Source of the DNA: Tubulanus polymorphus
Taxonomy: Eukaryota; Nemertea; Palaeonemertea; Tubulaniformes; Tubulanidae
NCBI RefSeq assembly: GCF_964204645.1
Contig: NC_134026.1
Location: 25,314,650 to 25,378,649, forward strand
Length of the DNA stretch: 64,000 nt
Direction: 5' to 3'
The notes below the pieces were generated by a model, which ran no database searches, had not been told where the DNA came from, and saw only the letters and a program-made list of their open reading frames with translations. A program made the position numbers and the translations under genes. The stretch's first letter is position 1. Each line of letters begins with the position of its first letter. Below are positions 59,101-62,100 of this stretch, piece after piece.

Positions 59101-62100
59101 GCTGTACGAGCACATATGTATCTACGAAGTCTGTGAAGTTACTTGAATTAATCCGCTGATGAAGTAGCCGAAAAAAAAACATTTAAATTTGGCTTTCATA
59201 TTTTTTCGTATCAGTACAGTTGACAGGTTTCATCAGCGCGTGCTTATGCGGTAATGGCTTGGTGAACACAATGACGTTTTAATGTTATTGCAAGAGCCAT
59301 TCTTCAGTCTCTACTCACTACACAGCGTAGGCTTCATGTAATTTATTGGAACAAAGAAACGCGAATGCATAAATGCATGATTAAAACAGTAAATTGAGAC
59401 AAAGGATGTTTTTGTATGCTGAACACATGCGGTGTATGATAAAACGCGTTCAGATTTTAATTCATCGGAGATAGGATTCATAGGTACAGATAGATGAGGC
59501 ACAACTTGTTTTTTAAGTACAAGTTCATATCGACATAATGTACGGAGATATAAGATTTAATGAATGCTTTCAATAGATTTAGTTCTATCCAGGTGTTTGG
59601 AGTTCTCTGATTTACGTAAACTAATACTCAAATGATAATTCACGAGGGTTTAAAATTATTTGAACAGGTGCAATTAGAACATACTCTTCTCTACTCTTGC
59701 CTCTCTCTTGGGCAACTGTTTCATTTATATTTAGACGTATTCTTTTAAATGAAATATATAGCTGCATGGATATATATCATCATACTAAAAAAGCTTTGAA
59801 ACTAATCGCATGGTAAAACTTGATGAGTTTGATGCAATTTTGGTGCCAGGGTTTGACGTTTGGTGTTGGTTGCGGAATATTTGGTGATAAGACTTTTCCT
59901 GCACGTACTAATCATATTATTATTATGTATGAATTGAAATAGCGTATACCACGTATAGTAGAGTAATATTTCCTTCAGTTTTTGCCTGAGGAACCTGTAA
60001 AACGTTCTACATGTGGTGTATATATCTCTTACATCTGTCTCTATTCTTTCTCTTTTTAATTTTTGGAATAAATAAACACAAATTTTTAAGCGTTTTATCA
60101 GTTGATGATAAATTATAATACCCCGATGTCTTACTTTTCTTTTCTTTTTATTTTAGCTTTCGTTTCCCCCACTGGTGAGCAGCTTAATACTGGGGCCCGA
60201 GCTCCAGGTGATGGGGGTAAGCACCATAATCAATTATTTCTCAACCTTTAGCTCTATAAGAGAAATGATTCCGAGAATATTTTAGCAACACTACTTGTTA
60301 CAAGACTACTGTATATCTATATATACATATTAACCTCTTAGAAAATAGCTTACTGCCATTTCATCAGAAAAAGCACATACATGTAACACATGATTAGATA
60401 ATCAGGCCTGATTATTAATCTGATATCTGAATGACGAAACACTGCCCCTCTTGTTGTTTTTATGCATTTTACACACGCACGGCGCGCGTTGGATGATGAT
60501 CATTCTCGTAGTTCATGCTGGTAGTAGCGAATTTCGATTAGTTGTTTATACGTCGGGAATGTCTCGGAGTTTACTAAGGCAGTGTAACGGGAGTATGGCA
60601 ATTCACAAAAAATTCGCTGTGGAGAAAATAATAATGTGTACTATTTTACGGAATAGTGCACCTTCGCATGTCTATCAGACGAAGCTGTTGGTACTTATAG
60701 CTCAGCTCGTGGTGTTAGTACTGGCGTTGTGTATATGCTTAGTTTCTTGCGCTGCTACCAGTATGAAAGACGTGTGTGTGTGTCTGTGTGTGTGTAGTAT
60801 TGCATTTATACCACATCATCTCGTCCTACTCAGAAATTTCATTAATTAACTCATAAATGCCATTCACTAAGAATAAATACAGTTCTCCAGAGATGTGCTG
60901 CAGTTGTGTTTTGTTCTTGAAATCAGTGTTGTTGTTCGTTGTTTTATTAAATGTCATTGTGTTTTGAATTGAGAACATTTTGAATGTTTTTATTGCGAAA
61001 ACGACTCTAGTTACAATTTCTCTGCTGTCTGAGATTACTTCTCGTTATTATACATTGTTGGTTATATTCATTTCTTGTCGATGATAATTTTGATCGATTC
61101 ATTTTTTCGTTTGAATCGTCATGATTGATACATATTATATACAGTACATATAAATGTTTCTGATACTGAAATGTATTCGAAGCTATAGCAGCCTGTGAAA
61201 CGCTGCCAGTTTTATATCCATAAAACTATTGATAGCTCTTCAAAACACCTGATGTGTTACCATTCACCGACTTCACTAATAAACCATATATTTACAAATA
61301 CAGAAACAAAAGCGAATTGAATATTAACTGAACCGATGTTTGTTCTATTGCAGGTCAGAGTCTTGGTTATGGATTCGTGAATTATAAGACTGCTGCTGAT
61401 GCAGAGAAAGCCATTACAACGTTAAATGGTCTGCGGTTACAGAATAAAACAATAAAGGTATGTCCTGACCGATCGATACGCTACACGATATTTTGCTGTA
61501 TCGTCTATTTTTGGTTCGCTCTAATGATAGATTACACAGTCCCTTAGTAATCGGCCATGCGTCATCATATTTACTGTCAGTGGAAGCAGGTTTTTATCCA
61601 CATCATGATATGATATAATTGTGATTCATTTTATGGCCGATGATTGTATAGCGCTAGTGCTTCACTCAAACAGTTACGTATCTAGGCATTCAGGCTTCGC
61701 TACGACTAAGTATGCACGCGGCATACTGTTTTAAATATCTTGAGATTGAAGCATTCTTTTGTTCTTCGAGTTTATGTTGTTTTCTTTCGAGAGAGCGCTT
61801 AAGTACATGAAAGCAAAAACGTGGCAACGATTTCATTGCGCCGGGGAACGGTGGCGATAAAAAACTTTTCATCAACTCGCTTACGCTTATTTTGTAGGTC
61901 TCCTACGCTCGGCCGAGCAGCGAGAGTATAAAGGGTGCCAATCTTTACATCAGTGGCATTCCAAGGAACATGAATCAGGCCGATCTAGAAAATTTATTCG
62001 CCCAATGCGGTAAAATCATCACTGCTAGGATACTCTATGATAATGTCACAGGTATTTAGTATATTTCGCGAAGAACATGCTTGCCGCGGTAGTTAAACGT

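Follow-up and report, generated by a model that had tools for sequence, protein, structure and literature searches.

A candidate frame-keeping mini-exon with three donors in the RRM1 intron of an ELAV/Hu gene of Tubulanus polymorphus

A short candidate exon lies within the intron that splits RRM1 of an ELAV/Hu gene in the palaeonemertean Tubulanus polymorphus. We put the probability at about two in three that the animal's single intron-containing ELAV/Hu gene has here a true small exon of alternative use, gained within the ancient J2 intron. As judged from its sequence, the segment is very probably a real additional exon that is small, keeps the frame and falls inside RRM1 of a neuronal ELAV gene; we infer that it is spliced and that its use is alternative rather than constitutive.

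The window, meaning the whole 64,000-nt stretch of DNA that was analyzed (C2:25314650-25378649, from an assembly of 268 Mb in 77 contigs), carries around the candidate exon a + strand gene of the ELAV/Hu family that encodes three RRMs, an RRM1-RRM2 portion of the ELAV type plus RRM3 (Table 1). Comparison of RRM1-RRM2 with HuC, HuD and HuR in the PDB gives E values of at most 1e-67 (phmmer). The RRM3 exon is located beyond the right end of the window, around C2:25384100 (found at C2:25384173). The conserved ELAV junctions have been numbered J1-J8; J2 in RRM1 and J5 in RRM2 occupy equivalent positions with respect to RNP1 and agree in codon phase (Samson 2008, PMC2529313). In the window gene, both J2 (RDKAT-G/GT) and J5 (YDNVT-G/GT) are found in phase 1, between codon bases 1 and 2, as expected of ELAV/Hu junctions, and the RRM1-splitting intron (56884-61353; 4470 nt, 34% GC) is the conserved ELAV junction J2. 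The original donor and acceptor of J2 are both intact, and clean skipping of the candidate exon is therefore possible.

Table 1 Features of the ELAV/Hu gene and of the candidate mini-exon, in window positions.
Feature	Position	Strand	Remarks
ELAV exon, N-terminus and first half of RRM1	56685..56883	+	likely ATG at 56709; ends KLIRDKAT+G, phase 1; J2 donor CAG/gtacgt
Three U-rich blocks, candidate ELAV-type binding stretch of ~100 nt	60053..60154	+	upstream of the mini-exon
U-rich block 1, U5AAU5	60053-60064	+	motif of the U5N2U3 type
U-rich block 2, U5...U4	about 60083-60096	+	
U-rich block 3, CU4CU4CU5AU4	60134-60154	+	is the polypyrimidine tract; holds CU4CU4
Candidate cassette mini-exon	60157..60216	+	60 nt, phase 1-1, adds 20 residues; in the J2 intron after RDKAT
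Candidate short form	60157..60174	+	18-nt microexon, adds AFVSPT; internal donor CTG/gtgagc at 60174
Candidate intermediate form	60157..60207	+	51 nt, adds 17 residues; internal donor CAG/gtgatg at 60207
ELAV exon, remainder of RRM1 from RNP1 onward	61354..61457	+	in-frame reading, alignment to Hu structures
ELAV exon, linker between the RRMs, then first half of RRM2	61898..62051	+	ends YDNVT+G, junction J5, phase 1
ELAV exon, remainder of RRM2 plus hinge start	62143..62377	+	ends HHPTGRF+AG, phase 2

Several further observations concern the surroundings of this gene and its relatives. The J2 intron also contains, ~1.1 kb upstream of the mini-exon, a perfect inverted repeat (58789-59022) whose two 97-nt arms are 100% complementary and are separated by a 40-nt spacer. 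This repeat is unique in the genome; either a palindrome arose by duplication recently, or the assembly is at fault. Beyond the window, the RRM2-RRM3 hinge intron holds a second candidate exon (C2:25381042-25381059) in phase 2, which starts with (R)FSPLEG and in its 18-nt form adds FSPLEG. The RRM3 exon begins in a similar way, with (R)FSPFEGG, and the candidate has the look of a hinge microexon that was duplicated at the variable J6/J7 site. An intronless ELAV paralogue is present at C7:4300091-4300588, with a 372-residue open frame, three RRMs and ~51% identity to RRM1-2 of the window gene. This paralogue is probably an old retrocopy, and from its lack of a loop insert it follows only that the founding transcript of the copy did not contain the exon. 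Elsewhere in the window, the + strand at ~21000-32500 carries the exons of a large multi-exon gene, which, by eye only and from a motif such as that at ~26750, looks like that of the RNA polymerase I largest subunit. Positions 18086-20250 hold tandem duplications that have diverged, one example being a 70-nt unit at 18210, 19300 and 20179. These duplications include two strong pairs of acceptor and donor, 18183-18316 and 19106-19230, which have poor open frames; they are possibly duplicated untranslated or noncoding exons.

The acceptor of the candidate exon reads acttttcttttctttttattttag/CT, with the AG at 60155-60156, and the full-length donor is GGG/gtaagc at 60216. An earlier note on this DNA had proposed a 60-nt exon here, and a re-reading of the sequence confirmed its coordinates, polypyrimidine tract, AG, GTAAG-type donor, length and junctions (56883/60157 and 60216/61354 upon inclusion). 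The included frame has no stop. Overlooked in that note were the further in-frame donors at 60174 and 60207: all three donors keep the frame, the resulting forms of 18, 51 and 60 nt are all open, and the insert could therefore measure 6, 17 or 20 residues. Divisibility of the length by three and the matching phase, which had been counted separately, do hold, but they constitute one fact rather than two arguments. The absence of a stop is likewise true but is weak as an argument, since 31% of random 60-mers from the intron and 55% of shuffles of the exon are open by chance.

By the usual secondary structure of RRMs, the insert lies between β2 and β3 of RRM1; alignment to 4ed5 and 1fxl places it directly before RNP1. 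The proposed location of a symmetric exon beside RNP1, in the β2-β3 loop of an ELAV RRM1, is well supported by the sequence. With the insert, RRM1 scores 71.7 bits against Pfam RRM_1, versus 82.8 bits without it, and the domain is still recognized. The inserted residues are mostly polar and include glycine and proline, and both RNP1 and RNP2 are left untouched.

To rank the splice signals, standard metazoan matrices were used, which are generic and not trained on Tubulanus polymorphus. At 11.5 bits, the acceptor ranks first among the 211 AGs of the J2 intron, with no other as high, and the donors at 60174 (9.7 bits) and 60216 (9.3 bits) occupy ranks 1 and 2 of the 264 intron GTs, with no others at or above 9.26. 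The two best donors of the intron are both located within 60 nt of its best acceptor, and the acceptor and donor scores add up to 20.8-21.2, which is above the sums for the gene's four internal constitutive exons scored. These ranks are stable: upon random perturbation of the matrices, the median rank is 1 for the acceptor, 4 for the donor at 60216 and 2 for the donor at 60174. An equally strong pair appears in 0.5-1.2% of Markov-simulated introns, before symmetry and openness are required. In random sequence from the same assembly, 150 kb read on both strands (300 kb of strand) contained 2 equally strong pairs, or ~0.03 per 4470 nt, and no pair of comparable strength in these 300 kb was both symmetric and open in the phase required. 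The earlier assertion that the signals are unlikely by chance is therefore borne out, both by their top ranks in the intron and by the absence of a symmetric open equal. In base composition, the exon (60% GC) also departs from the intron (34%), and all 60-nt windows with at least 60% GC, the intron maximum, overlap the exon.

The exon and the surrounding 501 nt are single copy in 268 Mb, which rules out a transposon origin. No homologue of the inserted peptide was found in viral contigs or prokaryote assemblies, which were scanned in case they contained eukaryotic contaminants, and none in solved structures, where matches were confined to the RRM part. A search for structured RNA gave no Rfam match, and the exon region folds no better than shuffles (z -0.77). 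The splice signals, frame, position and single-copy status of the candidate exon are established, as are statistics that exceed chance.

Splice sites this strong serve as a warning that the exon, while real, might be constitutively included in the Tubulanus lineage, the loop insert then being a fixed feature of RRM1. Both sites are at least as strong as those of the constitutive exons of the same gene, and the several fne transcripts are reported to encode one polypeptide (Samson 2008, PMC2529313), which suggests constitutive inclusion of the fne mini-exon. Constitutive inclusion nevertheless appears fairly unlikely. The canonical uninterrupted RRM1 is kept from HuD/HuR to the intronless paralogue in the same genome, which argues that skipping yields the standard protein. 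In addition, 18-60 nt is short for exon definition, and the dense U-rich cluster suggests regulation.

A pseudo-exon, in which a pyrimidine tract, an AG and a GTAAG have come together by chance and are never or hardly ever spliced, is unlikely. Introns are rich in decoys, a symmetric open pair is to be expected somewhere in a large genome, and the window itself contains three strong non-symmetric pairs at 17-19 kb; the rank of the signals and their clustering in the intron, the GC peak, the three in-frame donors and the lack of an equal in 300 kb all argue against such a coincidence. Splice signals alone are also silent on which exons are joined, and the exon could belong to another transcript, for instance as part of a noncoding RNA or of an intronic unit that supplies an alternative first or last exon, rather than form an RRM1 insert. 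However, an acceptor and donors are both present on the gene's own strand, phase 1 is preserved with every donor, and no second gene was noticed on the + strand within the intron, all of which make this origin very improbable. An alternative exon of the ELAV/Hu gene itself is the reading that we prefer.

With respect to the regulation of this candidate exon, the U-rich blocks upstream of it were compared with the binding-site model for fly ELAV. Stretches bound by fly ELAV are ~100 nt long and contain three U-rich motifs (U5N2U3, CU4CU4) set apart by spacers, and CU4CU4 has been used in fly ELAV binding assays, in which the optimum spacer was 25 nt (PMC11551757). The three blocks in Tubulanus span 102 nt with gaps of ~18 and ~37 nt, in a motif comparison that was chosen after seeing the sequence. 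In the 120 nt upstream of the mini-exon, U4 words number 12, versus 0-3 at each of four further ELAV acceptors examined within the window, and neither U5N2U3 nor CU4CU4 is present upstream of those four. Every exon can be expected to follow a polypyrimidine tract. Based on these motifs, autoregulation by ELAV via the putative U-rich binding stretch is plausible, and control of the exon may involve competition on this tract by ELAV or by some other factor that binds U, for example U2AF or PTB. Neuronal microexons of the Srrm234/eMIC type are very short and carry a UGC a short distance before their acceptor. From 59984 to the acceptor of the candidate, no UGC is found, though the 18-nt form is microexon-sized, and no Rbfox motif TGCATG is present close to the exon. 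A precedent for control by ELAV proteins themselves is HuD exon 6, as the title of a work cited in PMC8553928 indicates.

Extra exons at comparable places have been described in other ELAV genes, and the earlier statement that canonical ELAV genes have no exon at this position is wrong, given the precedents of fne (J2), rbp9 (J5) and bee elavl2 (RRM2 loop). In Drosophila melanogaster fne, a mini-exon is inserted at J1/J2, exactly at the J2 site; the donor of J2 has in addition moved downstream, and only one polypeptide is reported (Samson 2008, PMC2529313). The candidate at 60157-60216 matches the fne type in being a short exon within the J2 intron with its acceptor and donor in phase 1. The likeness, which is one of position and phase, extends to the same family, the same J2 intron in RRM1 before RNP1, the same codon phase and a short peptide in the same loop. 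In contrast to fne, the Tubulanus gene keeps both original J2 sites and has three in-frame donors. A gain independent of the fne mini-exon is assumed.

Drosophila rbp9 has an alternative symmetric mini-exon of 15 nt at J4/J5, with the flanking splice sites unaltered (PMC2529313). This arrangement mirrors that in Tubulanus, where a symmetric candidate mini-exon is found in the matching intron and the flanking sites are unchanged; the rbp9 exon, known to be alternative, differs in its location in RRM2 and its 15-nt length, versus RRM1 and 18, 51 or 60 nt. In honey bee elavl2, exons 3a and 4a are alternative, lie in the β2-β3 loop of RRM2 and show dynamic use in the brain (Ustaoglu et al. 2021, PMC8553928). 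Here too, exon material is added to the β2-β3 loop of an ELAV RRM, but in RRM2 rather than RRM1, and 4a is an alternative 3' splice site. The corresponding RRM2 intron (J5) of Tubulanus is only 91 nt and leaves no room for a typical cassette. The hinge microexons of ELAV/Hu genes (bee 4c, HuD exon 6 and the fne microexon) are also small alternative exons in an ELAV gene; unlike the candidate, they lie between RRM2 and RRM3, affect localization and have phase 2 junctions. ELAV mini-exons at this spot are thus already known in the fruit fly, and the present exon is a further example. What would be somewhat new is the presence of three frame-keeping donors in a gene that retains both of its J2 sites.

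If the exon is alternative, its inclusion (18, 51 or 60 nt by donor choice) would place 6, 17 or 20 extra residues in the β2-β3 loop, directly ahead of RNP1, and skipping would give the canonical ELAV RRM1. The longer loop may tune RNA binding by RRM1. A bolder extension, which we consider doubtful, is that the tandem donors would allow one ELAV gene to make graded RRM1 versions (0, +6, +17 and +20 residues) and that ELAV would bind the upstream U-rich stretch, so that the ELAV level would set the RNA specificity of new ELAV.

In both RRM1 and RRM2, the RNP1 motif, which contacts RNA, is immediately preceded by an ancient intron (J2 and J5, respectively), and junctions of the J2/J5 type have been proposed as sites of change in ELAV sequence and function (Samson 2008, PMC2529313). 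A real exon here would be one more case in favor of these introns as a source of variable ELAV loops; the published cases compared here are fly rbp9 and bee elavl2, which are alternative and affect RRM2, and fly fne, which affects RRM1 and for which one polypeptide is reported. With both J2 sites intact and three donors available, a real exon would also offer a direct test of whether the length of the RRM1 loop tunes RNA recognition.
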